Shown here piece by piece: positions 2,235 to 41,616 of a DNA stretch of 64,000 nucleotides. A program made the position numbers and the translations under genes. The stretch lies in contig JAFYOS010000006.1 of NCBI GenBank assembly GCA_017560125.1, positions 124,001 to 188,000 on the forward strand, in the 5' to 3' direction. The notes below the pieces were generated by a model. The model had not been told where the DNA came from and ran no database searches. It worked only from the letters and a program-made list of their open reading frames with translations. The DNA is from Bacteroidaceae bacterium (GTDB taxonomy: Bacteria; Bacteroidota; Bacteroidia; Bacteroidales; Bacteroidaceae). The stretch's first letter is position 1; each line of letters begins with the position of its first letter.

Positions 2235-4274
2235 TTATTTGCGTCGTACGGGGAACTCGGCTATTCTGAGCGTTGTGCAGCCGTAGGGTATCAGTGTAAT
2301 CTCCTTCTCCTCGCCCAGCTCCTGGCTGTTAAGCATCTGTGTGTAGTAGTTGATGCTTCCGGTCGAGTTGCGCGACATCTTCCACTCGTCAATCTTTATT
2401 CCTTTGCATTTTATCTGTATGGGGGCATTTGCGAGCGTCCAGGGGGTGTCGCTTATCTCCTTTTTCTTCACGATGAATGAATTTTTTACATTCTCGGGCG
2501 CAATGTCCTTGTTGTTAAGGGCGTAGTTCCACTCCGTGGGCGATGTTACCTCGTAGTAATATGCTCCCCACTTGTCTATCTCTTTTCCCTCGCATTTGTG
2601 CTTGGTCCAGTTCTCTTCCATGCGCAGGGCATACAACAGCGGGCCGCGTTCCACCACCGCAGCGTTGTCGTACCAACGCGATACGCTTACTTCGGCGTTC
2701 ATGCTCAGTGTCACTTGGTCGCCATCCTTCCACTGGCGGTTGATACATATTGTACCCTCCTTTTTCTCGGTAGCTTCGCTCTTTATGCCGTTGATGGTCA
2801 GTGTGTAACCTTTGCTCCATGCGGGTATGCGGAGCTCAAGGGGGAATGTGGCTGTGCGATGCTTGCGCTTGGGTAGCGATATGTGGAAACGTATCTCCTC
2901 CTCGAAGGGATAGCCGGTGCTCTCTTCAATCGTCACTTGTGCGCCCGAGTCGAGTGTGGTGGTCACCTTCGATGGTGCGTAAATCATTGCAGCCAGTCCG
3001 CCCTCGCTGTTCTTGTACCATAGGTTTTGAGTGAATTTGGGCCATGCCTGGTGCAGGTTGCATGTGCAGCAGGGGTATCCAGTGAGTATGCCGAAGAGTA
3101 TGTCGGTGTCCTCGTGTGGGGTAGAGAAATCGCGCATTTTGCGTGTAACTTCCACCTGGTTTATCTGTTGGTAGTATTGTCTTGCATCGCCCGAGTCGGT
3201 TATCTGTGTGGGTAGCGCGTTGTAGGTTATGCGCTCCAGCAGGTCGGCATATCTGTTGTCGCCGGTTATGCGGTACATCTCTTCCAGTGAATACATCATT
3301 TCGGTTGCCGTACAGAGCTCCGAGCCACGTGTAGGGTCACCGAAGTGCAGCAACTCGTCGCCTGCCCACAAGCCGGTGGGGTAGCCTATGGTGTGGCGTA
3401 TGCGTTGCAATGCTTCGATGGGTGCTTCAAGGTGTTTCTTCTCTCTCGACTGCTGGTAATATATTACCGGCTCCTTGAAACCTTGTCCCAAATTCACGCA
3501 ATGGAGACTGTTCTGGCGGTACAGATGGTTGTCGGTAGTGAAACGGGCTGTCCAGTCGGCCGACTGCTTGTGTATAAGCTCGCCAAGTTTCAGCAGCTCG
3601 GGGTTACCAGTGATGTTGTATATCCAATGCACCATCAGCAGGTTGTCGCCACCGCGTTCCGTTGCCCAAAATGTCCAATTGCCGAGGGGGGTCTTCACGA
3701 GCTGCTTGCTTTGGTATTCGAAATATCGCTCCATGAATTCTATCACTCGCTTGTCGCCGGTTGCCATGTAGTATTGCTGCAATATTTTCAGTGCTACCAT
3801 TCGCGGCCACCAGTCGGCCGAGTTGTTGCGCTGCATGCCGTCGAGATAGGGACGATCGGTATCGGGGCCGAAGTAGCCGTTCTCTTTTTGGCTTGCGAGT
3901 ATTGCTTCCACCCACTTCAAGCACTTTGCTTTCAGGGCGTTGTCGTTCATGATGTATGCCATTGGCAGCGCGCCGTCTATCCAGTATGGGCCACGCTCCC
4001 ATGCGTCGCCCTCGCCGCCGAGCCATGCGTTGTTGTCGCCTACAACCTTTTCGTATATAACATCAAGGTTGCCGGTCATGCCGTCGAGCATTGTCTGCAT
4101 TTGTGCTTTCAGCCATCCGCTTGGCTGAATTGCACCTATGGGCAGTTGGGCATATGGTGTTTCGGTCAGTGGAGCACGGTTGAAAACGGGTTTTACCTCC
4201 TCTTTTCCTTTTGCGTATGATGATGTGACTATGCCAGCGATAGCCAAAACAGAAATAAATGTGCGCAGTTTCAT
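2235..4274 (-). CDS. Secreted GH127-family glycoside hydrolase (beta-L-arabinofuranosidase type)
   Basis: 679 residues with an N-terminal signal peptide (about 1-21). The body is an (alpha/alpha)6-barrel GH127/DUF1680 protein followed by beta domains. The zinc-thiolate active site described for HypBA1 is matched in order: E319-x-C321 (GSELCTATE) and C402-C403 in PCCTCN, with a similar spacing in the second GH127 of this window. Known members remove beta-L-arabinofuranose from plant glycoproteins and pectin, but the family contains other specificities, so the substrate is an inference. The gene stands alone, with a TATCTTTG box 22 bases upstream of the start. No SusC/SusD pair is near it. Confidence 0.87.
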   Translation of the reverse strand: MKLRTFISVLAIAGIVTSSYAKGKEEVKPVFNRAPLTETPYAQLPIGAIQPSGWLKAQMQTMLDGMTGNLDVIYEKVVGDNNAWLGGEGDAWERGPYWIDGALPMAYIMNDNALKAKCLKWVEAILASQKENGYFGPDTDRPYLDGMQRNNSADWWPRMVALKILQQYYMATGDKRVIEFMERYFEYQSKQLVKTPLGNWTFWATERGGDNLLMVHWIYNITGNPELLKLGELIHKQSADWTARFTTDNHLYRQNSLHCVNLGQGFKEPVIYYQQSREKKHLEAPIEALQRIRHTIGYPTGLWAGDELLHFGDPTRGSELCTATEMMYSLEEMYRITGDNRYADLLERITYNALPTQITDSGDARQYYQQINQVEVTRKMRDFSTPHEDTDILFGILTGYPCCTCNLHQAWPKFTQNLWYKNSEGGLAAMIYAPSKVTTTLDSGAQVTIEESTGYPFEEEIRFHISLPKRKHRTATFPLELRIPAWSKGYTLTINGIKSEATEKKEGTICINRQWKDGDQVTLSMNAEVSVSRWYDNAAVVERGPLLYALRMEENWTKHKCEGKEIDKWGAYYYEVTSPTEWNYALNNKDIAPENVKNSFIVKKKEISDTPWTLANAPIQIKCKGIKIDEWKMSRNSTGSINYYTQMLNSQELGEEKEITLIPYGCTTLRIAEFPVRRK

Positions 4275-5177: not shown

Positions 5178-6854
5178 TTACTCCTTGCCGTCTTTTGTCA
5201 GCAACCATCCGCCGCTCTGTGTGGCAGCCGAGCCGAGTGCATAGTCGCTCTCGCTGAAGGCGTTAACGGTGCCGTTTGTCAGGGTGATGCCGTTTGTGGC
5301 TACTATCGACTTGTCGTACGATTTCATGAGCACAGTACCGCCGTTCTGTGTATATGAGAGGGCCGATACGGCGCGTGTCTTTTTGTCGTCACTGCCTTCG
5401 TTGTAGTTCTTGCCGGTAGAGAGCAGTGTTATTGCTCCGCCGTCTATCACCACATTGCCGTCGGCATTGATGGCTTTGGCGCCTGTGCCATTGCAATTGA
5501 TGCCGATTGTACCATCGGTGATGGTGCAGTTGTTATTGCACTTGAAGCCTGCTGCGGACGAATTGTCGCTGCTTATTGCGCCGCTAACCATTGCTGTGAG
5601 CTTGCCGCCGGTGAAGATGATGTCCTTCTCGCTACTTACAGCTTTCGAACCATTGCCACCGGTGGTTATCTGAACAGTGCCGCCTGTCTGTGTATAGTTG
5701 GCATTGCTCTTGATAGCCATTCCCTTCTCGCCGGTTGTGGTTACCTTCACGAATCCGCCTCTGATGTTAATCGAGGGGTCGATGGTGGCATTTGCAACAC
5801 CATCGTACGAGGTGGTAATACCATCGTCAACGGTGTTTACAGTGATGTTGCCGGCCTCTATAAGTATGTTGCCCTTGCCACAATCGATGCCATCGCCGCT
5901 GGCGTTGATGGTTATTGTGGGCGATGCATCTGCCATTCGTCCTACGCGGAACGACTCGTTGGCATTGAAGCCGTCCTTAGCCGCAGAGAGGATGTTGATG
6001 TTGCCGCTTCTCACGCGTATGTAGTCGTCGCTGCATATTGCGTGACCGCCATAGCTCTTTACGTTGAGCGTGCCGGTGCCACTGAAAATCATCTGGCCTT
6101 CGCTGAAGAATGTACCCTTCTGATCTTCGGGTTCGCCGTTGCTATATGCGGGTTCGTTATATGTTTCGCCGTCGCAAAGGGTGTTTGTCTTGCCGGCAGC
6201 GAGTGTTACATAAATTGTCTTGCCGCTCTGTATGTTTATAGCAGGGCCCTTGGGGTTGGTCAGGGTTAAGCCGTTAAGTGCCAATTGGAATTTCTTCTCG
6301 CTGTATATCTTGAGCGAGCCGTTACTGCAACTACCCGAAACGCGATAGGCCATCTTGCTGCGCGATGAATTTATCATCAAGTGGGTTTTATCTACTACGG
6401 TGTAGCTTACCTGGTCGATGATGTCGGGTGTGATTGTTACTCCTGTTTCGGTGAAAGTGATGGTTGCAATCTTTGATGTGGAGTAGTTCTCGATGAAGTC
6501 GCCCGATTCGTCGTTGTTCTCGTCGGTGATGATGGTCTCGACAATCTCCTTGTAGCTGTTCTTGTCGTTCTCGTCGAACGCTACGCCGAGGTTCTCGGTG
6601 TATGTGAGCTCTTTTGCTCCTGCCGGCTGAGTGAAGCTGATGCTGTCAACCTTGTTTGTCGCAAATTGGCTTGTTACACCGTTTGTGAGCTTTATGGCTA
6701 CGAGCTTTTGCTCGGCGTCGAACTCCATCTGGTGTGTTTCGGCAGTGGTTATGCCCTGATATGTACCGTTGTTATTGGCTACGTAGTATTTGCTTTGCGC
6801 GTGTGCCTGAAGGAATGAGGCGAGGCACAGCATTATTGTTATTCCTTTTCTCAT
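5178..6854 (-). CDS. Secreted Cthe_2159-type carbohydrate-binding beta-helix protein
   Basis: 558 residues. A signal peptide (about 1-20) is followed by a module at ~22-75 ending in KVDSISF, which is shared with three other proteins of this window. From about 170 onwards there are repeated short strands rich in G, N, D and T (ASGDGIDCG, GNITVNTVDDGI, TTTGEKGMAIKS, GGAITLLSTG), the pattern of the right-handed parallel beta-helix of the Cthe_2159 family. The founding member binds cellulose and polygalacturonate. The protein ends without a T9SS-like tail. Its ATG overlaps the stop of the small upstream gene (ATGA, 6851-6854), so translation is coupled. It is the last gene of the VTC-DUF4956 operon. 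A role as surface adhesin or matrix protein is an inference. Confidence 0.83.
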   Translation of the reverse strand: MRKGITIMLCLASFLQAHAQSKYYVANNNGTYQGITTAETHQMEFDAEQKLVAIKLTNGVTSQFATNKVDSISFTQPAGAKELTYTENLGVAFDENDKNSYKEIVETIITDENNDESGDFIENYSTSKIATITFTETGVTITPDIIDQVSYTVVDKTHLMINSSRSKMAYRVSGSCSNGSLKIYSEKKFQLALNGLTLTNPKGPAINIQSGKTIYVTLAAGKTNTLCDGETYNEPAYSNGEPEDQKGTFFSEGQMIFSGTGTLNVKSYGGHAICSDDYIRVRSGNINILSAAKDGFNANESFRVGRMADASPTITINASGDGIDCGKGNILIEAGNITVNTVDDGITTSYDGVANATIDPSINIRGGFVKVTTTGEKGMAIKSNANYTQTGGTVQITTGGNGSKAVSSEKDIIFTGGKLTAMVSGAISSDNSSAAGFKCNNNCTITDGTIGINCNGTGAKAINADGNVVIDGGAITLLSTGKNYNEGSDDKKTRAVSALSYTQNGGTVLMKSYDKSIVATNGITLTNGTVNAFSESDYALGSAATQSGGWLLTKDGKE

Positions 6855-7312
6855 TTCTTTATCAATTTAACGGTTTGTCTGTTGGCGCGGAGCAGATAAA
6901 TGCCTTTGGGAAGGTTGGCGATGCTTATGCTGCCTCCGTCGCTTTCTTGTATTTTCTGTTGAACCATGCTGCCGCTTACATTATATATTGCAATCTCCTC
7001 GCCGGCTTTGCAGTTAACCGCTATTTCGTCCGACGAAATGTACGAGATTAAATCCTTGCCTTCGTTGAAATCCACTTCGCCGATGCGTGTGTAATCGTCG
7101 AAATAGATTTTTGCAATGTCGCTCATCTCTGTACCTATGATTGTACCGTCGTTCTGTGCAATGTTTACAGTGTTTCCGTTGAATGTAATGCGACGGAAAT
7201 TCTGCAACGCAACGGCCTGCTTACCACTGTCGTTCTTCTCGAGGACAATGCGCTGTGCAAATGATGGTATTGCGGCAATGAACAGTATTGCTATTATTAA
7301 GAATCTTTTCAT
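6851..7312 (-). CDS. Small secreted protein with a T9SS-like C-terminal tail
   Basis: 153 residues: signal peptide (1-20), a ~55-residue module ending in DIAKIYF (also in the Cthe_2159 and CotH proteins), and a C-terminal domain from about 95 with the type-A sorting pattern IYNVSG...LPKGIYLLRANRQTVKLIKK. No catalytic domain lies between these two parts. It lies 21 bases downstream of the DUF2490 gene and overlaps the next gene by 4 bases. Its architecture repeats that of the 39470-39943 protein, which is coupled to CotH. An adaptor or anchor for its tail-less partner is my inference; secretion by T9SS cannot be confirmed because no T9SS genes are visible. Confidence 0.8.
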   Translation of the reverse strand: MKRFLIIAILFIAAIPSFAQRIVLEKNDSGKQAVALQNFRRITFNGNTVNIAQNDGTIIGTEMSDIAKIYFDDYTRIGEVDFNEGKDLISYISSDEIAVNCKAGEEIAIYNVSGSMVQQKIQESDGGSISIANLPKGIYLLRANRQTVKLIKK

Positions 7313-7333: not shown

Positions 7334-8161
7334 TTAGAGGTCGAATGAGTAGCTTGCGCCGATGGCATGTCCTGCGGGCTCGTCATCGTCGTTTGCATTT
7401 TGGTAAATGTAGAAGAGCGATACCGAGTTCTTCTTGTCTATCTTGTAGTCGGCACCAGCACGGTAACGTATCTTGTCGTGGAAGTGCCACTCATCTACAC
7501 GTGTGAAGAGCTCGGCCGATACGAAAGGTTTGATAGGGCACTTGCGTATATCCCACTTGATAGTCAAGCGCGAACGCAGGGTGGTGTTGTTCTTTGAATC
7601 TTTAAGTTCGGCCTCGGTCTTCTTTGTTTCGGTAGGATTATCAAGGTCGCCGCCTATATACTCCCAACGATACTTGTCTTCCATTGCGGCAGTAGCATGT
7701 GTGTATGTGTACTGGAAGCGTTCGCGAAGAGAAAATTCAAAACGTCCAACATCGAAACTGCCTGTTAAAGAAGCAAATAGACGCTCTTTGTTTACGCGAT
7801 GAGCATTGTCGATATTGTAATTGTAGTGTGCCTCGTCTAAAATTTCTTTTATTGAAATTTTCTCAGGCTCATATGCATTCATGTATATGTATCCGGCATC
7901 TGCTTTCAGCCATTTGTAGGCTTTGTATGAAATGCTTACGCCAAAAGAACGGCGGTCAACAGTTTTCAACCCGTCGGTTGTGCGGAATTCGCCCTCCAAT
8001 CCTAGCTTGACTTTGTCGGAAAGCTTCTTTGACGCATCAATGCTTGTCCATATACCAAAATCGTCGCTATCGTTGTTAGCGAGAACCTGGCAGGGAAGCG
8101 ATGTTATCGCAACTGCCACGGCGTACATGACGCCTCTCTTAATTTTTGATCTTAAATTCAT
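7334..8161 (-). CDS. DUF2490 domain protein, putative outer-membrane beta-barrel
   Basis: 275 residues with a basic N-terminus and signal peptide (to about residue 28, LPCQVLA). The mature part alternates polar and hydrophobic residues in strands (SFGVSISYKAYKWLKADAGYIYM, FEFSLRERFQYTYTH, FVSAELFTRVDEW, KNSVSLFYIYQ) and ends in SYSFDL with a terminal hydrophobic residue, as in outer-membrane barrels and DUF2490 proteins. Function unknown. The start overlaps the DUF4956 gene by 23 bases, consistent with coupled translation in a five-gene operon. A role as an outer-membrane exit or anchor for products of the VTC/DUF4956 pair is speculation from context. Confidence 0.85.
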   Translation of the reverse strand: MNLRSKIKRGVMYAVAVAITSLPCQVLANNDSDDFGIWTSIDASKKLSDKVKLGLEGEFRTTDGLKTVDRRSFGVSISYKAYKWLKADAGYIYMNAYEPEKISIKEILDEAHYNYNIDNAHRVNKERLFASLTGSFDVGRFEFSLRERFQYTYTHATAAMEDKYRWEYIGGDLDNPTETKKTEAELKDSKNNTTLRSRLTIKWDIRKCPIKPFVSAELFTRVDEWHFHDKIRYRAGADYKIDKKNSVSLFYIYQNANDDDEPAGHAIGASYSFDL

Positions 8162-8906
8162 CGCTGGGAGCTTTAGTGATTTGATCTACTGAATTTATTC
8201 CTTTGCTTGTGGGCTTGTAATACATCTTGATGATGGCTGCGTCCTTCAAGAAATCGAGGCCGCCTACCTCTACCTTCACAATGTCGAGGCCAGTACGTTT
8301 TTTAAGGTCGGCAATGAGCTCCTTCTCTTTGTCGGGAGTGATGAGGTTGATGTTATCATACTTGATTATCTTGTATGAGAGGTGTGTGATGAACCAGTTG
8401 CTCTCGCACAACCACAACGAGAAGATAAACAGCAGGTTGGCTACAATCATCTCGACAAAGCTAACCTCCTCGGCAACAAGACCGTTGATGGCACTTACGG
8501 CAATGATTACGAAAAGGTATGTCATTTCGCGGATGGCCACCTGCTCGGTGCGGTAACGTATGATGCTGAAAATAGCGAAGAGTCCCAATGCGAATCCTGT
8601 CTTCAGTTTAACGCCACCCAACAGATAGATAAGCAGGAAGATACTTATGGCTATAAGTGTGAATGTGAAGAAGTAATCACCGCGCTTGCTCTTGGGGTAG
8701 TAGAAGAATCGTACGATTATTCCTACGAAAAGCAAGTTCAAAAAGAAGAATGCCAACAGGTTGAGTGTACCTTCGAGGTTGAATACCGAACCGGCCATTG
8801 CCGATGTGTTGGAAATAGCCTCGTCCAAAAATTCATCGCCAAAGGCATTGGCTACCGTTGTTGCCGTGTTTACTCCGGCTGTCAGTAAGGTTGTCAGGAT
8901 GTTCAT
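8139..8906 (-). CDS. DUF4956 membrane protein
   Basis: 255 residues. An N-terminal amphipathic part is followed by four or five transmembrane segments (about 48-68, 79-98, 105-118, 128-147 and 149-166), with the conserved FAIFSIIRYRTEQ loop near 111-123, then an ~85-residue soluble tail. This is the DUF4956 layout. The family is uncharacterised and, as I recall, is commonly encoded next to VTC-domain polyphosphate polymerases, as it is here (4-base ATGA overlap with the upstream VTC gene). A role in moving or assembling a polyphosphate-type product at the inner membrane is plausible but unproven. Confidence 0.9.
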   Translation of the reverse strand: MNILTTLLTAGVNTATTVANAFGDEFLDEAISNTSAMAGSVFNLEGTLNLLAFFFLNLLFVGIIVRFFYYPKSKRGDYFFTFTLIAISIFLLIYLLGGVKLKTGFALGLFAIFSIIRYRTEQVAIREMTYLFVIIAVSAINGLVAEEVSFVEMIVANLLFIFSLWLCESNWFITHLSYKIIKYDNINLITPDKEKELIADLKKRTGLDIVKVEVGGLDFLKDAAIIKMYYKPTSKGINSVDQITKAPSDEFKIKN

Positions 8907-9685
8907 AGTGTATTATTTTTTTGTATTTTTTCTAATTTGTCAATCAAGTTCAGTCGCTCTTTGAAATTGTTGCGCTTGAGGCTTTTGTTGGTCAGGGCGC
9001 AGCCCATGCAATATTTGCTGAAGCCCGAGCGCTTTATCCTCAGCTTGCGAAATATCTCGAGCGAGGGTGAGTGCACGTTGCCATCTCTCTTCAGCTCGAT
9101 TACCGTTACGTGCTCAAGCTTGCGTCTTTCGTCGGTGAGGAAATTGTGGAACCGCAGATTGAAATCTATCGTCAGGCGCTCGGTCTTGGCCGAATTCACA
9201 AGCGTTATTCTGTTGAACCAGTTTTCTATTGTGGGACGTATCTCGTCGAGCTTGTACCATGCGTGCTTGCCCAGGAAGGGTATTACGCGTTCCTGCTCTT
9301 CGATTAGTGAATCGACGCCGCGCACTTCGATGCGTTTTTTGTTCGTACGTTTGTGGTTGTTCTTGTTCTTCACCTCGAGGAATGTAATCTCGGTGTCTTC
9401 GTATGTGCGGACACGAATTTTTTCACGCACCAGTTTTCCGTTGTGGTGCATTACGTACATTTCGTTGTTGGCGGTATCGAAATAGGTTGTGTGATACGAC
9501 GCTAAACGTATTCCATTGATTTCCTGAATGTAATATTCGCCTTGTACGGCCTTGAGAAAGGCCAATAACTGGTTGATGGTCGCCACATATTTTGTGTCCG
9601 TGCGATTCATCAGTTTAATACCCGACATCTCCTCCAGCGAAATGGGTGGCAGGTCGTTAGCTCGCTCTATAATTTTTTCAATCAT
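8903..9685 (-). CDS. VTC-domain protein, putative polyphosphate polymerase
   Basis: 260 residues from the ATG at 9683-9685; a longer open frame up to 9892 would run across the promoter and is not used. The protein has the triphosphate-tunnel fold signature of the VTC catalytic domain: NRTDTKY at 27-33, TYFDT at 67-71, a basic cluster REKIRVRTY at 87-95, FLEVK at 102-106, and later TIDFNLRF and TVIELKR. These Arg/Lys/Glu residues line the tunnel that binds polyphosphate and metal in the yeast Vtc4 domain. There are no membrane segments; membrane attachment would be via the DUF4956 partner, whose ATG overlaps its stop. First gene of a five-gene operon. Confidence 0.88.
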   Translation of the reverse strand: MIEKIIERANDLPPISLEEMSGIKLMNRTDTKYVATINQLLAFLKAVQGEYYIQEINGIRLASYHTTYFDTANNEMYVMHHNGKLVREKIRVRTYEDTEITFLEVKNKNNHKRTNKKRIEVRGVDSLIEEQERVIPFLGKHAWYKLDEIRPTIENWFNRITLVNSAKTERLTIDFNLRFHNFLTDERRKLEHVTVIELKRDGNVHSPSLEIFRKLRIKRSGFSKYCMGCALTNKSLKRNNFKERLNLIDKLEKIQKNNTL

Positions 9686-9754
9686 TATTCGTGTTGTGGG
9701 GGATAGTTGTTTGTGCTTTTTCCCTCGCTTTCGGCAGTCGCCTACTTTGCAATG

Positions 9755-9762
9755 CAAATATA
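9755..9762 (-). promoter_or_regulatory. -7 box TATATTTG of the VTC operon
   Basis: Plus strand CAAATATA, 70 bases before the VTC start codon. The leader is AT-poor towards the gene. It supports 9685 as the start because the upstream part of the longer frame would precede the transcript. Confidence 0.65.
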
Positions 9763-9855
9763 TATAAAAGATTGTATAAAATATTACTTGGGTGCTCTTT
9801 TTTGCGGTAAATGGTAAAAAAAATGAAACAACCTCTTTTTCTACCCGACTTTTGG

Positions 9856-9863
9856 TATATTTG
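9856..9863 (+). promoter_or_regulatory. -7 box TATATTTG of the HD-domain gene
   Basis: The box lies 27 bases before the ATG at 9891 and is divergent from the VTC operon promoter about 95 bases away. Confidence 0.65.
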
Positions 9864-9890
9864 CAAGCAAATATTTTTCGCATTTCTATC

Positions 9891-10430
9891 ATGGACTATC
9901 AAGCAATAATAGACAAATACTACCCCGAGGATAATGAGCAGAAGCGTATTTTGGTGAAACACAGCCGCATGGTTGCCGATTTTTCGCTCGAGCTTGCTCG
10001 CCGTCACCCCGAACTGGGCTTGGATATGGCATTTATCGAAGAGGCTGCCATGCTTCACGATATCGGCATATTTTTGACCTCGGCTTCCGATATTGGTTGC
10101 ACAGGCGACATGCCATACATTTGCCATGGCTTTTTGGGTGCCGAACTGCTCCGAAAAGAGGGTTTCCCACAGCATGCCCGCGTGTGTGAAAGACACACCG
10201 GCACCGGGCTCACCAAGGAACGTATCGTCGAAAGTGAATGGCCTTTGCCTCAACGCGATATGTCGCCCGAAACCACAGCCGAGCAGTTAATCTGTTTTGC
10301 CGATAAATTCTTTTCCAAGGTTAAATATCTTCACAAGTCGCGCACCTTTGAACAGGTAGAGGAGAGCATGGCTCGCATATCGCCCGAGAGCGTTGCTAAA
10401 GTGCGCGAGTGGGCAGCACTTTTCCTTTGA
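9891..10430 (+). CDS. HD-domain phosphohydrolase-like protein
   Basis: 179 residues from the ATG at 9891; an in-frame ATG at 9792 lies upstream of the promoter box and is rejected. HD-superfamily metal ligands are visible: H24 in LVKHSRMVADF, the doublet in AAMLHDIG (about 62-69), and further His in CHGFLGAELL and CERHTG. Such small HD proteins are usually metal-dependent phosphohydrolases of nucleotides; the substrate is unknown. It is monocistronic, divergent from the VTC operon, and lies 91 bases ahead of lptD, which has its own promoter box. Confidence 0.85.
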   Translation: MDYQAIIDKYYPEDNEQKRILVKHSRMVADFSLELARRHPELGLDMAFIEEAAMLHDIGIFLTSASDIGCTGDMPYICHGFLGAELLRKEGFPQHARVCERHTGTGLTKERIVESEWPLPQRDMSPETTAEQLICFADKFFSKVKYLHKSRTFEQVEESMARISPESVAKVREWAALFL

Positions 10431-18818: not shown

Positions 18819-18854
18819 CTGTATTAAATGAATAAGTACTTAAAAAACAATATT

Positions 18855-21800
18855 ATGAGAAAAAATTACATTAAACAATTATTTATTGCGTTGGCTGTCA
18901 TGCTGTGTAGCGCGACGGCCGGAGCGTACGAAATTGTAGTAGATGATATCTACTATAAAATTATTTCTGAAGATGAATTAACGGTAAGTGTCGAAAATTG
19001 CAACAAAAATCTTACCGGTGATGTTGTTATTCCATCGACAGTTACATACAACGGCAAGGAGTATAAAGTTGTTGAAATATTGAACTATGCTTGTAAAAAT
19101 GTCACAGGCATTACAAGCGTAACAATCCCCGGCACCGTTGAAAGCATTGGCTACAGTGCCTTTGCCGGTTGTACCGCTATTACGAGCGTCACATTGGGCG
19201 ACGGCGTTGTCAGTATAGAACAGCGAGCTTTCGATGACTGTACTAATCTTGCAAATATCGTAGTACCCGCCACTGTGACAAGAATAAGCGCTTCGCTCGA
19301 AAAAACAGCATGGTATAACAGCCAGCCCGATGGCCCTCTCTATTTAGGAAATGTATTTTTTGAGTATAAAGGTGGAGTACCTGAAAACACATCTGTGAAG
19401 ATAAAAGATGGTACAGTCGGTATCGCATACGGTGCTTTCGAAAATGAGTACAATTTGACAAGCATTGACATCCCTAATAGTGTTAAGGCTATATCTACTT
19501 GGGCGTTTTATGGTTGTAAGAATCTTACAAGTGTAAAGCTTCCCAATAGCCTTACTTATATATCTAATTCAGTATTTGCGAATTGTAGTAGCCTTGCAAA
19601 TATCGAAATCCCCAGCAGCGTTACAAGTATAGGAAATGGTGCTTTTGAAAATTGCACAAGCTTTACAAGCATCGACATCCCTAATAGTGTTATAAGCATA
19701 GGTAACAGCGTTTTCAAAGGTTGCACCAATCTTGCCAATATAACAATACCCAATAGCGTTGTTTCTATGGGTGATAATGTGTTTACCGACACTCCATGGT
19801 ACAACAACCAGCCCAATGGTGAGCTTTATGTCGGAAAGATATTGTACGCATACAAAGGCGACATGCCCGCCGGCACGTCGATTAACGTCAAAGAGGGTAC
19901 TTGGGGCATTGCAGCCGGTGCCTTCATTAACTGTGTCGGTCTTGCAAGCATTGATATTCCTAACAGCGTTACCACTATAGGATATTCGGCCTTCTCTGGT
20001 TGCACCGGGCTTAGCGCTATTGAAATACCCGATAGCGTCACAAGCATAGGAACTTACGCTTTCAGCAAATGTACCGGTCTTACCACTATTAAATTCCCTA
20101 ACACTGTTACTGAAATTGGTGATGGAGCGTTGTATGGATGTAATAGCCTTACAAGCATCTATATGCAAGGAACAACCCCGCCGGTACTGTTTGGTAATTC
20201 TTCATACCCCGAAATTGTTGCATACACTCAATACGAAAACATCACTCTTTATGTGCCCCGTACTGCATTGGATGCATACAAAAATGCCGATGGTTGGAAG
20301 AATCTTAAGAACATCGTAGGTTATGGTCCTTTGAGAAAAAAAGACATCTTCGAAGCAGATGGTGTTTATTACAAAGTGCTGTACGAATCACCTTTACGCG
20401 TGGCCGTTACTTATAAAGGAGATTACGTCTCGGAGTATAGCAATGAATACTCAGGCGCTGTTGTAATCCCATCGACCGTTATATGCGAAAACGATACATG
20501 CAGTGTGATATATATAGACATGGAAGCGTTTGAAGGTTGCACCGGTCTTACAAGTGTAGAAATTTCTAATAGCGTGACAGGTATAGACTACCGTGCGTTC
20601 TATGGTTGTACCAGTCTTACAAGCGTAACCATTTCAAGCAATCTCATTGATATAAATGCCAATGCCTTCGTAGGTTGCGACAACCTTGCCAACATCTATT
20701 TAAATGGTAAAACTCCTGCAAGTGCAATGAGCAATGCTTTTACAGCGTCTCATTATTCAAATACCACTGTCTATGTGCCCAGAGGTTCATTGGAAACATA
20801 TAAAGCGGCGCATACGTGGAAAGATTTTGCAAACATCGTAGAGCACGGCCCCTTGGCAGTGGGTACCACTTTCGAGGTTGACAGCATTTGTTACAAAGTG
20901 ACCTCCGATTCACTTATAACGGTTGAAGTGGCCAAATTGGGCTCTGCTAATGGTAGTGCGTACACAGGCGATGTCGTAATCCCTGCTGCTGTTACATACG
21001 ATGGTGTTACATATAGTGTCACCGGCATTGGTGATAAGGCCTTCTATCGTTGTAGCACTGCTTTTACAAGTATTGTAATTCCCAATAGCGTAACAAGCAT
21101 AGGAAAAAATGCTTTCGAGAATTGCACGGGTCTTATAAATGTAGAAATCCCCAGTAGCGTTACAAACATAGGGAAAAGTGCTTTCTATCGTTGTAGCGCT
21201 CTTGCAAGCATCGTAATCCCTAATGGCGTTAAGACCATAGAAAGCAGTACGTTCCGTCGTTGTGAAGGTCTTACAAGCGTTGTAATAGGTAACGGTGTGA
21301 CAACCATAGGAGATTATGCGTTCGAGTCTTGCTCATCTCTTAAAGATTTATATATAGAAGATGGCGAAACAACCCTTGCGTTAGGGTTTAACGCGTCAAG
21401 TTCTAATTCATCAGGAACAGGAGAAGGCCTGTTTTATGATTGCCCGTTGGAAAATGTCTATATAGGTCGTAATCTTAGCTATGATGCATCTCAAAAATAT
21501 GGATATTCTCCATTCTACGAAAAAGCAACATTAAAATCACTTACAATCGGTGATAATGTTACAAGCATAGAGAATAAAGCATTCTATGGTTGCAGTGCTC
21601 TTACCAGCCTTGTAATAGGCAATGGTGTTACAACCATAGGAAATTATGCGTTCGACGGTTGTAGCGCTCTTACTAGCGCAACAATAGGTAGCAGTGTAAC
21701 AAGCATAGGAACATGTGCGTTCAACCGTTGCGCCGGTCTTACCAGCCTTGAAATACCTAACAGCGTTAAAACTATAGGGCTTTATGCGTTCAGTGGTTGT

Positions 21801-23453
21801 AGCGCTCTTACCAGTCTTGAAATACCTAATAGCGTTACATTTATAGATGAATTGGCATTTTCCGATTGCTCAAGCTTAGCTAATATTGTTGTTGCCGAAG
21901 GAAATAGCGTTTACGATTCTCGCAATAATTGTAATGCTATAATAGAAACAGCAACAAATACTCTTGTTGTCGGTTGTAAAAATAGTGTGTTTCCGAGTGG
22001 TATTACAAGCATAGGAGCGTATGCTTTCTATGGCTCTACAGCTATTACAAGCATCGACATCCCCGCGAGCGTTACAAGCATAGGTGTATGTGCTTTCAAC
22101 GGTTGCACCGGTCTTACAAGCATTGAAATTCCCGATGGCGTTACAAGTATAGGTTCACGCATGTTCTATGGTTGTAGTGCTCTTGCAAGCATTGAAATCC
22201 CTAATAGCGTTACAAGCATTGGTAGCGAGGCTTTCTCAGGTTGCAGTAGTCTTGCAAGCATTGACATCCCTAATAGTGTAACAAGCATAGATTGGGGCGT
22301 GTTCTATGGTTGTAGTGCTCTTACAAGCATTGAAATTCCCGATAGCGTGACAGGAATAAGTAACGAGATGTTCTCTAATTGTAGTGCTCTTGCAAGCGTT
22401 AAAATCCCTAATGGCGTTACATATATAAATGCGTATGCGTTCTATGATTGCACTTCCCTTGCAAGCATTGAAATCCCCAATAGCGTGACAAACATTAACC
22501 GCTATGCGTTCTATAATTGTAGCAGTCTTACCAGTGTAAGGCTCCCCGAAAGCCTATTGTTTATAGAAAATGCTGTATTCTATGGATGCGACAGCCTTAC
22601 AAGTATATATGCAACGGGAACCACTCCTGCAATTGTTTATGCCACGGGTGGTGGCAATATTACACTGGTTAGCGATTATACAGCCACCACTCTCTATGTG
22701 CCTCGCGGTTCATTGGCAGCATACCAATCAGCGAATGGTTGGAATTATTTCACAAATATCGTAGAGTACGGATTGGCTGCCGGTGATGTATTTACCGTTG
22801 ATGGCATCAGTTACCGAGTTACTTCCGATTCGTTGCTCACCGCCGAGGTTACATGCAAGGCAAATGAAAGTTCGGAATATGGCATCGAATATGCCGATGG
22901 ATATTCGGGCACAGTTGTAATCCCCGATGCTGTTTCATGCGAGGGTCTTACCTATAGCGTAACAGCCATTGGCGAGAGCGCATTCGCAGGTTGCACCGCA
23001 CTTACCAGCGTTGAAATCCCTGCGAGCGTCACAAGAATAGATATGAGTGCTTTCGTAGGTTGCAGCTCACTCACAAACGTTAATCTGACCGGCAGCACAC
23101 CTCCTGTGCTCGATAACGGTAGCTTCGCCGACAGCCAGTATGCCGATGTGGTTGTACGCGTGCCCGACGATGCAGTGGATGCCTACAAGGCGGCAGATGC
23201 TTGGAAGGAATTTAAGAACATCGTAGGTTCCGATGTTACCTTCATCGAGCAGGTAGAGGACGACGCTACCGCCTTCGAGGCGACAGCGGGTGGCTTGGTG
23301 CTCACCGCAGCCGATGGCAAGCCCGTTGCAGTTTATTCTATTAACGGCGCCCTCGTAGAAAAGATAGATAGCTATGCCGGTGAGGAGATTACTCTCGAAA
23401 AGGGTGTTTACATCCTCCGCGTGGGCAGCGTCACCGTCAAGGTAAAGATGTAA
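18855..23453 (+). CDS. BspA-like leucine-rich repeat surface protein
   Basis: 1532 residues. Signal peptide (about 1-24, ends TAGA), then about fifty LRR_5-type repeats of ~23 residues with the consensus LTSIEIPNSVTSIGxxAFxGC. The repeats are cut into four blocks, each opened by a small beta module (FxVDGxxYKVTSDSLxxVEV...VVIPxxVTY), and most blocks close with TLYVPRGSLxAYKxAxxWKxFxNIVxxG. Within block 1 a 45-residue insertion is present twice (WYNxQPxGxLYxGxxxxxYKG). The C-terminal ~55 residues form a T9SS-like tail (VYSINGALVEKI...GVYILRVGSVTVKVKM). BspA-type proteins bind fibronectin, fibrinogen or other bacteria; ligand unknown here. The gene is visibly more AT-rich than its neighbours. 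Confidence 0.9.
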   Translation: MRKNYIKQLFIALAVMLCSATAGAYEIVVDDIYYKIISEDELTVSVENCNKNLTGDVVIPSTVTYNGKEYKVVEILNYACKNVTGITSVTIPGTVESIGYSAFAGCTAITSVTLGDGVVSIEQRAFDDCTNLANIVVPATVTRISASLEKTAWYNSQPDGPLYLGNVFFEYKGGVPENTSVKIKDGTVGIAYGAFENEYNLTSIDIPNSVKAISTWAFYGCKNLTSVKLPNSLTYISNSVFANCSSLANIEIPSSVTSIGNGAFENCTSFTSIDIPNSVISIGNSVFKGCTNLANITIPNSVVSMGDNVFTDTPWYNNQPNGELYVGKILYAYKGDMPAGTSINVKEGTWGIAAGAFINCVGLASIDIPNSVTTIGYSAFSGCTGLSAIEIPDSVTSIGTYAFSKCTGLTTIKFPNTVTEIGDGALYGCNSLTSIYMQGTTPPVLFGNSSYPEIVAYTQYENITLYVPRTALDAYKNADGWKNLKNIVGYGPLRKKDIFEADGVYYKVLYESPLRVAVTYKGDYVSEYSNEYSGAVVIPSTVICENDTCSVIYIDMEAFEGCTGLTSVEISNSVTGIDYRAFYGCTSLTSVTISSNLIDINANAFVGCDNLANIYLNGKTPASAMSNAFTASHYSNTTVYVPRGSLETYKAAHTWKDFANIVEHGPLAVGTTFEVDSICYKVTSDSLITVEVAKLGSANGSAYTGDVVIPAAVTYDGVTYSVTGIGDKAFYRCSTAFTSIVIPNSVTSIGKNAFENCTGLINVEIPSSVTNIGKSAFYRCSALASIVIPNGVKTIESSTFRRCEGLTSVVIGNGVTTIGDYAFESCSSLKDLYIEDGETTLALGFNASSSNSSGTGEGLFYDCPLENVYIGRNLSYDASQKYGYSPFYEKATLKSLTIGDNVTSIENKAFYGCSALTSLVIGNGVTTIGNYAFDGCSALTSATIGSSVTSIGTCAFNRCAGLTSLEIPNSVKTIGLYAFSGCSALTSLEIPNSVTFIDELAFSDCSSLANIVVAEGNSVYDSRNNCNAIIETATNTLVVGCKNSVFPSGITSIGAYAFYGSTAITSIDIPASVTSIGVCAFNGCTGLTSIEIPDGVTSIGSRMFYGCSALASIEIPNSVTSIGSEAFSGCSSLASIDIPNSVTSIDWGVFYGCSALTSIEIPDSVTGISNEMFSNCSALASVKIPNGVTYINAYAFYDCTSLASIEIPNSVTNINRYAFYNCSSLTSVRLPESLLFIENAVFYGCDSLTSIYATGTTPAIVYATGGGNITLVSDYTATTLYVPRGSLAAYQSANGWNYFTNIVEYGLAAGDVFTVDGISYRVTSDSLLTAEVTCKANESSEYGIEYADGYSGTVVIPDAVSCEGLTYSVTAIGESAFAGCTALTSVEIPASVTRIDMSAFVGCSSLTNVNLTGSTPPVLDNGSFADSQYADVVVRVPDDAVDAYKAADAWKEFKNIVGSDVTFIEQVEDDATAFEATAGGLVLTAADGKPVAVYSINGALVEKIDSYAGEEITLEKGVYILRVGSVTVKVKM

Positions 23454-39469: not shown

Positions 39470-39943
39470 ATGAAACGTATTTTTAATATCAAAGTGGCCA
39501 TTTTGCTGGCCCTGATGTTTGTTGCCGGTAAGTCGTCGGCACAAACCCCATTGTATCTAATGAACACGTCGGGAGCCTTGTACTCCTTTGTACTCGAGGA
39601 GAAACCTCGCTTCTGGCATTCATCTTCGTTGCTCCACATTAAGACCGAGAGCTTGAAGATAAATTTTGTGCTTAACAAGGTATCTCAGATATTTTGGGAT
39701 AACGAGATTCCTACATCCATAAAAGAGACTGTCGAGGAGAAGGCCAAGTTCAGAATAGACGATAACAAGCTGTATATTTCGGGCGCACCGGCAACCGAAA
39801 TATTCATCTATTCGCTCAAAGGCAACCTTTGTGCTAGAATAGAGGCGGCCGACAGCGAGCAGGTGGTCGATATTACAGAATTCGAGGCGGGAACATATTT
39901 GGTGAAGGTCGATGATTTTACATTTAAATTCATTAAGCGATGA
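39470..39943 (+). CDS. Small secreted protein with a T9SS-like tail, coupled to CotH
   Basis: 157 residues. Signal peptide (about 1-25, ends KSSA-Q), a ~60-residue module ending KVSQIFWDN that aligns with the corresponding module of the Cthe_2159, CotH and 6851-7312 proteins, then a tail with IYSLKGNLCARI...FEAGTYLVKVDDFTFKFIKR. There is no other domain. It has the same size and plan as the small protein of the VTC operon, and in the same way its stop overlaps the start of a tail-less larger protein (ATGA, 39940-39943). Role as adaptor or anchor is inferred. Confidence 0.8.
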   Translation: MKRIFNIKVAILLALMFVAGKSSAQTPLYLMNTSGALYSFVLEEKPRFWHSSSLLHIKTESLKINFVLNKVSQIFWDNEIPTSIKETVEEKAKFRIDDNKLYISGAPATEIFIYSLKGNLCARIEAADSEQVVDITEFEAGTYLVKVDDFTFKFIKR

Positions 39944-41616
39944 CGAAGAAAGCACTATTATTCATATTGGCCGCCATCGCCATGCTTTTGCCTGCCCATG
40001 GCGCACAGGATTCTATTTTCGTGCAGTTGAAGGACGGCACCGTGCTAGCATATGAATATGCCGAGAACGACACGGTATCCGTCGATGAAACATATATCAA
40101 TATCTCCGACACCACTTTCTATTCGGGCTATGTGCGCAGGATTGTCTTCGACAGGTCGGTACTTGGTCGCGAATCGAGCATGCAGCTGATGTCGTTCAAA
40201 TTGCGCCATACGGACGAGGGCAACGAAGCGCTGCTCAACAAGACCTTCTCGGCAGATATTGACGACCTTACGAACAAAGATACTATCAGCTTCATCATTC
40301 CTTACCTCACCAACTACAAGCTGAAGCCATTTTTCATGGCCAATTCGCACAAAGTGAAGGTATATGCCAACGACGAACTGATAACCTCGGAAGAGAGCGT
40401 TGTGGATTTCACCAATCCGGTTACAATCCGTCTTGAATATGGCGACGCAGCTCCCAGGGAGTATGTCGTGTGCTTGAAGAACTCGGGCTTGCCTATTGTG
40501 GTGATTGATACCCCCAACGGTCAGGCTATCGCCAGCAAGAGCACATGGGTCGAACGAAGCTCGATGACCATCTATCGCCCCGACGGAGGCATCGACTACA
40601 GCTCGGGCACCGACTACATGAACATCAGCGGTCGTGGAAACAGCACATGGAGCTATTCGAAAAAGCCCTATAACATCAAGCTTAATGTGAAGAAGGCGAT
40701 ACTTGGAATGCCCAAGCACAAGCGTTGGTGTCTGCTTGCCAACTACATCGACCGCACACTGATTAGAAACGCCGTGGCATTTGAACTGGCCAAGATGACC
40801 TCGATGGACTGGACGCCCAATGGTCGTTTCGTGGAGCTTGTGGTTAACGGCAAGGCGTTGGGTAACTATTATTTGTGCGAGGCTATCCGCATAGACAACG
40901 ACCGTGTGAACATAAACGAGATGGGTCCGAACGACATTTCGGGCGAGGCTATCACCGGCGGCTATCTGATGGAGCTCGACAGCTACTACGATGCCGAGTG
41001 GAAATTCAAGACATCGTATTTCAAGATGCCTATAAACATGAAGGAGCCCGACGACGATGTTATCAACAGCTATCAGTTCTCGTACATAAAATCGTACTGC
41101 AACGATGCGGAAAAAATGCTCTACAATGGTTCGTACAACTCATTTGCCGAGTATTTCGATATGAACACACTTGTCGATTGGTACATACTCAACGAGGTGA
41201 TATACAATCCCGAGCCCAAGCATCCCAAGAGTAGCTACATGCATAAGGACAAGAACGGCAAGCTGCGCATGGGCCCCGCATGGGACCACGACTGGGAAAC
41301 ATTTACCCCGCACACCAGCCTTGTGAACAAGGAGGCCATGTGGTTCGGCAAGCTGTATAAATTGCCCGAATTCGTGAAATTGCTCAAAGAGCGTTGGAAC
41401 AAGCTCAAGAAGCCGTTTGCTTCGGTAGCTGGCTTCATCGAGGAAACCCGCGAGGAGATAAGGCTCTCGTGGCAGTTCAACAATTCTGTGTGGGGCACCA
41501 TCAGCAATGGAGTAAATGGTGATATATCGCTTCCCTATGACCAGGCTGTGGATCGTCTTAAAAATTCGCTCCTAAACAGAATCAATTCGTTGGATGTAAT
41601 AATAAATTCATTGTAA
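39940..41616 (+). CDS. CotH kinase family protein, exported
   Basis: 558 residues. Signal peptide (about 1-22), shared module at ~24-72 (DGTVLAYEY ... YVRRIVFDRS), an immunoglobulin-like region (about 82-190), then the CotH kinase domain: SGRGNSTWSYSKKPYNIKL at 230-248, DRTLIRNAVAFELAK, VVNGKALGNYYLCEAI, and GPAWDHDWETF at 445-455 with the DxD metal site. Characterised CotH kinases phosphorylate extracellular or spore-coat proteins on Ser. The protein has no T9SS-like tail, but the coupled upstream gene does. CotH, VTC, DUF4956 and Cthe_2159 genes are associated in other bacteria, so this locus may cooperate with the 5.2-9.7 kb operon. Confidence 0.9.
   Translation: MTKKALLFILAAIAMLLPAHGAQDSIFVQLKDGTVLAYEYAENDTVSVDETYINISDTTFYSGYVRRIVFDRSVLGRESSMQLMSFKLRHTDEGNEALLNKTFSADIDDLTNKDTISFIIPYLTNYKLKPFFMANSHKVKVYANDELITSEESVVDFTNPVTIRLEYGDAAPREYVVCLKNSGLPIVVIDTPNGQAIASKSTWVERSSMTIYRPDGGIDYSSGTDYMNISGRGNSTWSYSKKPYNIKLNVKKAILGMPKHKRWCLLANYIDRTLIRNAVAFELAKMTSMDWTPNGRFVELVVNGKALGNYYLCEAIRIDNDRVNINEMGPNDISGEAITGGYLMELDSYYDAEWKFKTSYFKMPINMKEPDDDVINSYQFSYIKSYCNDAEKMLYNGSYNSFAEYFDMNTLVDWYILNEVIYNPEPKHPKSSYMHKDKNGKLRMGPAWDHDWETFTPHTSLVNKEAMWFGKLYKLPEFVKLLKERWNKLKKPFASVAGFIEETREEIRLSWQFNNSVWGTISNGVNGDISLPYDQAVDRLKNSLLNRINSLDVIINSL

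Follow-up and report, generated by a model that had tools for sequence, protein, structure and literature searches.

The window analyzed here, a stretch of 64,000 nucleotides from a Bacteroidaceae assembly (GCA_017560125.1, contig JAFYOS010000006.1, positions 124,001 to 188,000), contains two loci in which a small gene encoding a protein with a T9SS tail directly precedes the gene of a large, tailless protein (Table 1). Locus 1, on the minus strand, runs in the order VTC-domain protein, DUF4956 protein, DUF2490 protein, small protein 1 and Cthe_2159-type beta-helix protein; locus 2, on the plus strand, consists of small protein 2 followed by a CotH protein. A reading of the sequence alone had reported a 4-base overlap between the small and large genes of pair 1 and the same arrangement at 39470-41616, and the coordinates confirm both, the genes of pair 2 sharing the 4 bases 39940-39943. 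The VTC, DUF4956 and DUF2490 genes of locus 1 overlap as well.

Elsewhere in the window, a BspA-type leucine-rich-repeat protein of 1541 aa (18828-23453) carries a T9SS-like tail at its own C-terminus. This tail scores 17.9 bits against TIGR04183 (cut-off 23) and lies above the cut-off in the genome scan with frame neighbors.

Table 1. Features of the two loci, in window coordinates.
Feature	Position	Strand	Description	Evidence
Large protein 1	5178..6854	-	558 aa: signal peptide, N-terminal module, Cthe_2159-type beta-helix; without lipobox, without tail	
Best Cthe_2159 stretch in large protein 1	5799..6356	-	residues 167-352	Pfam
N-terminal module of large protein 1	6633..6794	-	residues 21-74	profile match E 2e-7, signal peptide included
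Stop/start overlap of pair 1	6851..6854	-	4 bases (ATGA)	
Small protein 1	6851..7312	-	153 aa: signal peptide, beta module, T9SS type A tail	TIGR04183, AlphaFold2
T9SS tail of small protein 1	6854..7048	-	residues 89-153 (about), seven strands	TIGR04183, AlphaFold2
Module of small protein 1	7094..7255	-	residues 20-73; strand-strand-turn-strand, twice	pLDDT 88-96 in ten-residue blocks, 21-70
DUF2490 protein	7334..8161	-	same operon as pair 1	Pfam; gene order in relatives
DUF4956 protein	8139..8906	-	same operon as pair 1	Pfam
VTC-domain (polyphosphate polymerase-like) protein	8903..9892	-	same operon as pair 1	Pfam
Small protein 2	39470..39943	+	157 aa from ATG 39470; 163 aa from 39452	TIGR04183 23.9 bits; small-protein profile E 6e-35
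Module of small protein 2 (approximate)	39542..39700	+		alignment
Tail of small protein 2	39716..39940	+	begins at a PT/SI site fitting the published cleavage consensus	
Large protein 2	39940..41616	+	558 aa: signal peptide, module-like N-terminus, CotH domain; without lipobox, without tail	
Module-like N-terminus of large protein 2 (weak)	40006..40149	+	residues 23-70	E 0.036
CotH domain of large protein 2	40627..41580	+	residues 230-547	Pfam

Tails and modules of the two pairs

Both small proteins match the type A tail model TIGR04183 above its cut-off of 23 bits (small protein 1, E 6e-9, 35.7 bits; small protein 2, E 3e-5, 23.9 bits), and against the Pfam tail model PF18962 (cut-off 27) small protein 1 scores over the cut-off (33.4 bits) and small protein 2 under it (19.7 bits). 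Among the 18 TIGR04183 matches in the whole genome at E <=1, no other has an open frame as short as those of the two small genes (154 and 163 aa; the next measures 325 aa), and the two are the sole full-length matches genome-wide to a small-protein profile, which contains both. The AlphaFold2 model of small protein 1 (mean pLDDT 87.9) is confident in the module and in the tail and uncertain in the linker; with a pTM of only 0.47, the relative placement of module and tail has low confidence. Signal peptides of the small proteins were assigned by reading, and the model of small protein 1 has an N-terminal helix. The module and T9SS-like tail that the sequence-only reading gave the small protein are confirmed, behind a probable signal peptide. 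Its description of the protein as nearly all sorting tail is an overstatement, as the module accounts for about 40% of what follows the signal peptide.

PorU removes type A tails and joins the cargo to surface polysaccharide, and a PorU gene is present in the window's genome. The PT/SI site of small protein 2 lies directly behind its module. The motif PT/x[IV] was found in 17 of 108 small proteins of the family and 2 of 43 of the order, against 57 of 2903 random windows; since it is enriched in the family only, we place the cut by its position. If the tail is cut directly behind the module, the mature small protein would be the module alone, held on the surface. Short tails like those published for Prevotella intermedia cargo occur, by reading, in family members.

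The body of large protein 1 is a Cthe_2159 domain (PF14262; E 7e-54, 183.3 bits, cut-off 25.8) and that of large protein 2 a CotH domain (PF08757; E 1e-35, 124.2 bits, cut-off 23.8), a family assignment made by profile. TIGR04183 has no match in either protein, and a lipobox cysteine with an acidic stretch is absent from both (by pattern in large protein 1, by reading in large protein 2). A tail of their own was rejected for the large proteins on the missing TIGR04183 match and on the results of a home-made tail profile, which at E 0.1 recovers 105 of 111 small proteins (some of which it was trained on) and all 8 positive controls.

The N-terminus of large protein 1, signal peptide included, matches the small-protein profile at E 2e-7, and a profile-to-profile comparison aligns the small and partner module families over 53 columns (E 4e-5, with a probability of only 70%). 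The N-terminus of the CotH protein reaches E 0.036 with a 75-residue module model and falls outside E 0.1 with a trimmed 50-residue model. We discarded the longer profile because it extended into the beta-helix body and matched 9 of 34 lipoproteins without any small gene (E 0.01), and used the 50-residue profile in its place. These profile matches support a module common to the small proteins and the beta-helix partner that is weak in the CotH protein. The large neighbors had been described earlier as tailless proteins sharing the N-terminal module: the lack of a tail stands for both and the module for the beta-helix protein, with the module of the CotH protein remaining weak.

Small genes and lipid anchors in the family

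We surveyed 151 genomes of the family (the window's own included), 90 of which have a VTC gene. The small gene and the beta-helix gene occur together at 62 of the 90 VTC loci, the small gene alone at 4, the beta-helix gene alone at 10 and neither at 14, several of these last being cut by contig ends. By reading, the 10 beta-helix proteins that stand alone are lipoproteins; acidic residues follow their cysteine, and they show no module. Loss of the T9SS as the reason for these lipoproteins was rejected, since 9 of the 10 genomes concerned have PorU. PorU was found in 64 of 66 family genomes bearing a small gene and also in 20 of 24 VTC genomes without one.

A wider comparison covered 158 non-redundant beta-helix proteins, including paralogs outside the VTC operon and proteins of named Bacteroidales, a set biased to strong PF14262 and VTC matches from which truncated proteins (L016, the second frame of L098, L220 and L203) were left out. 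Signal peptides and lipoboxes were called with a home-made pattern, with classes set by hand for L139 and L224 (plain signal peptide) and for L002, L150 and L275 (lipoprotein). A small gene lies directly upstream of 103 of the 158 proteins, at a gap of exactly -4 in 64. After hand correction none of the 103 is a lipoprotein; the uncorrected pattern calls one of them (L139) a lipoprotein owing to a cysteine in the mature chain. Forty proteins are lipoproteins, none with a small gene upstream, and 15 are neither. The 50-residue module profile reaches 0 of the 40 lipoproteins at E 0.1. At E 0.01, the trimmed profile matches 103 of 103 paired proteins (a circular figure, because nearly all of the 100 training rows were drawn from that set), none of the 40 lipoproteins, and five proteins among the 15 others (L013, L219, L237, L244 and L312).

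On a tree of the beta-helix proteins, the lipoprotein state changes 9 times, with 5 supported independent contrasts, of which 2-4 are informative (mean 3.5): in these the small gene moves opposite to the lipoprotein state, and in no contrast do the two change together (median p of the sign test, 0.125). The independent contrasts are too few, and their direction, together with the CotH proteins, is consistent with small genes and lipid anchors excluding each other. The two nearest relatives of the window's CotH protein in the genus (45% identity) are lipoproteins by reading, without a small gene or a tail, and so is a second CotH protein of the window's own genome. Eight longer CotH proteins, seven from the genus and one from the window's genome, end in a T9SS tail of their own by the home-made tail profile (eight tested). 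We also observed, by reading, a CotH subfamily among L169-L193 whose members have plain signal peptides but lack all four other features: tail, lipobox, module and small gene.

Several beta-helix proteins depart from the two main classes. Six of the 40 lipoproteins have a small gene downstream; for L223 and L225 that gene belongs to the next beta-helix gene, and the exceptions are L086, L088, L270 and L276, whose downstream small gene is unshared. By reading, L270 apparently has a module too. Among the 15 beta-helix proteins that are neither paired nor lipoproteins, a small gene lies downstream of L013 and L068. A T9SS-like tail ends L091 (home-made profile, E 0.004) and, by reading only, L237, and L239 gives a weak tail-profile match (E 0.015). 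L229-L232 have dockerin-like tails by reading, confirmed by Pfam for L230 and L231. A module is present without an adjacent small gene in L219 and L312, and is at most doubtful in L234 and L241. L240 has no recognized module, small gene, tail or lipobox.

Some VTC operons have a small gene and no adjoining beta-helix gene (L073, L077, L081, L084, L261, L267 and L269, of which L267 is the same locus as L084, and L261, L267 and L269 belong to the named loci); L264 resembles them, with the contig ending there. In such operons the small protein may have another partner.

Pairs and a natural fusion across Bacteroidales

A profile of 24 small proteins was run on 295 genomes of the order, the window's own included. 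At E 1e-12 it reached 51 genomes from 36 genera (34 family codes among the matches listed), though some of the matches extend over no more than the tail half of a longer protein; for single genomes as many as five stand-alone copies are listed (G300, G284). From these we took 43 distinct stand-alone small proteins, 29 as loci and 14 new ones from 20 chosen regions, picked by profile with their neighbors ignored; the total is at least 43, and a 193-aa match (L390:4438-5019) was excluded. In 39 of the 43, the next gene downstream encodes at least 200 aa, at a gap of -4 to 124 bases and exactly -4 in 18; in the remaining four no such downstream gene was seen, one of them being at a contig end. 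All 39 partners have a plain signal peptide by the home-made classifier. The sequence-only reading had named other Bacteroidales pairs as something to look for, and such pairs are present: 39 of the 43 small genes have a large neighbor of secreted type, and the module profile matches 25 of the 39. A chance neighborhood, in which a short T9SS cargo happens to lie beside a secreted protein, draws on the size of the small gene and nothing further; contradicted already by the recurrence in family and order, at 62 of 90 VTC loci and 39 of 43 order small genes, it is scarcely credible and was rejected.

By reading, 13 of the 39 partners are beta-helix proteins and 26 have other bodies, including FISUMP, CotH, lamin-tail, PCMD, fasciclin, laminin-G with GDPD, SusD, GH43, heparinase II/III-like and alkaline phosphatase. 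Pfam and NCBIfam each covered 20 of the 39, in different sets: Pfam gave a family over the cut-off for 13 and none for 7, and TIGR04183 matched 0 of the 20 at E 0.1. The home-made tail profile, run on the 22 complete partners, matched 1 of these 22 and 1 of the 103 paired beta-helix proteins at E 0.1, and none at 0.01. The module profile, whose training rows are all beta-helix proteins and come mostly from one family, reached 25 of the 39 partners at E 0.1, 13 of them among the 26 with other bodies; many of the partners that it missed apparently have a single repeat (by reading). It also reached 13 of 1005 controls, 11 of which are module proteins (nine duplicate or truncated beta-helix proteins, one small protein and one second module protein in a small-gene operon), the other two (L137 and L163) being unexplained. 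That such pairs recur in many Bacteroidales while the large partner varies widely suggests that a second protein can supply the secretion signal.

The small protein could instead act on the large one as a secreted chaperone or inhibitor and be displayed for some other reason. Small size, the gene overlap and a shared beta module would suit a chaperone pair, but the partners come from unrelated families, and to our knowledge homologs of these families need no such helper; we consider this very improbable. At one locus (L382), the small gene is followed by two module proteins in a row, at 850-2541 (fasciclin) and 2569-4077 (502 aa), so that one small protein may serve two partners.

A Bacteroidales MAG (L244; SUXO01000025.1) has a fusion in one 674-aa frame that contains, in order, a signal peptide, a small-type module, a Dockerin_1 domain, a partner-type module and a beta-helix, with no internal signal peptide. 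The DUF4956 protein of this locus is 70% identical to that of the window. Because L244 lacks the tail and a second signal peptide, a sequencing frameshift alone cannot produce the fusion, which was seen once among 80 loci. An alignment meant for folding L244 placed small-protein modules on its second module and was left unused. Dockerin_1 replaces the tail in the small proteins L109, L113 and L126 by Pfam, and in L142 by reading. Dockerin type I also stands at the C-terminus of some beta-helix proteins (L230, L231).

These dockerin-tailed small proteins and the tailless, lipobox-free L244 would suit holding better than export, as in a reading that gives the small protein no role but anchoring: the large protein would cross the outer membrane by another route, and the small protein, exported alone by the T9SS, would catch it at the surface through the modules. 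The sequence evidence for this is the same as for the main reading given below. No other export route is visible, with plain signal peptides in 39 of 39 partners and no tail in those tested, and on balance we think an anchor-only role unlikely.

Distances among the small-protein modules and among the partner modules have a partial correlation of 0.48, against 0.48 for the beta-helix body and 0.45 for DUF2490. Co-divergence of the two modules was rejected as specific evidence, since the body and DUF2490 correlate equally well. That module distances track the partner module no better than DUF2490 agrees with regulated stoichiometry without contact, in which two independent proteins of one pathway are translationally coupled, the large one acting in the periplasm. 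Stop/start overlaps often serve translational coupling, and the VTC, DUF4956 and DUF2490 genes likewise overlap. Left unexplained are the shared module family and its absence from lipoproteins (0 of 40), the unrelated bodies behind like small proteins, and the fusion, and stoichiometry without contact is in our view quite unlikely.

A proposed export signal or anchor supplied in trans

Our preferred reading, to which we give a probability of roughly 60%, is that the small protein supplies in trans the T9SS export signal, the surface anchor, or both, for a tailless large protein, through the modules. It draws on the co-location of the genes, the sharing of the module (weak in CotH), the lack of tail and lipobox in the large proteins, the exclusion with lipid anchors, the fusion and the recurrence. 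The two-component T9SS cargo proposed in the sequence-only reading is thereby supported in part, by the lipid-anchor exclusion, the unrelated bodies across the order and the natural fusion; against it stand small genes without a module-bearing neighbor in some genomes.

As a mechanism, both proteins would enter the periplasm through Sec, as their signal peptides, read from the sequence, suggest, and their N-terminal modules would bind one another there. The tail of the small protein would bring the pair to the T9SS translocon, and PorU would cut the tail just behind the module and join the module to surface polysaccharide. The mature small protein would then be little more than a docking module holding the large protein on the cell, and the pair would substitute for the lipid anchor used by the same kinds of large protein in relatives. 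In a variant, the large protein would leave by another route and be captured at the surface, the small protein acting only as anchor.

Known type A cargo of Prevotella intermedia has short and long CTDs, with the tail removed at a PT/GI consensus and the cargo joined to surface glycan (PMC11969387), and PorV is the binding partner of type A tails within the SprA translocon (PMC10994853). The small proteins resemble this cargo in their tail and, by reading, in their signal peptide, and small protein 2 in its PT/xI site. In known cargo, however, the secreted protein bears the tail itself, whereas the window has the tail on a small protein of its own, encoded next to a tailless large one. Type B CTD proteins with PorP-like holders (PMC9143113) provide a surface protein held non-covalently by a second protein, as proposed here; in their case a beta-barrel does the holding and the protein that it holds bears a CTD, whereas the window's large proteins have no CTD and would be held by a small type A cargo. 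The Cthe_2159 and CotH lipoproteins of relatives, with acidic residues behind the cysteine, resemble surface lipoproteins that carry a lipoprotein export signal (PMC5080379); the window's proteins differ in having no lipobox. In the open-access T9SS literature, to the extent of the text consulted and with subscription papers and preprints outside its scope, we found no description of a CTD lent by a neighboring protein, and a text search of the available text of two T9SS reviews (PMC10202324, PMC5445135) found no wording for it.

T9SS cargo is predicted by finding a tail on each protein (PMC11969387). If a tail can be lent, proteins that have a plain signal peptide and no tail would wrongly be counted as periplasmic, possible examples being arabinanase-like, alkaline phosphatase, heparinase-like, SusD-like and CotH proteins. 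The module would then offer a short tag with which proteins could be displayed on Bacteroidales cells, and whether the T9SS exports a bound complex becomes testable. A broader proposal, which we hold about evenly balanced between right and wrong, is a general in-trans sorting device of Bacteroidales: a module of about 55 residues would tag unrelated proteins, one module-plus-tail protein per pair would pass them to the T9SS and fix them to surface polysaccharide, and display would switch between lipid anchor, own tail and borrowed tail.

Polyphosphate polymerase and DUF4956 genes also occur together, with CotH in the group, beside Gram-positive pel operons (PMC7112168). Unlike those groups, the operon of the window adds DUF2490, the small protein and the Cthe_2159 protein. 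The VTC and DUF4956 genes (8139-9892) and the CotH gene (39940-41616) lie 30 kb apart in the window, with a small protein at each place.
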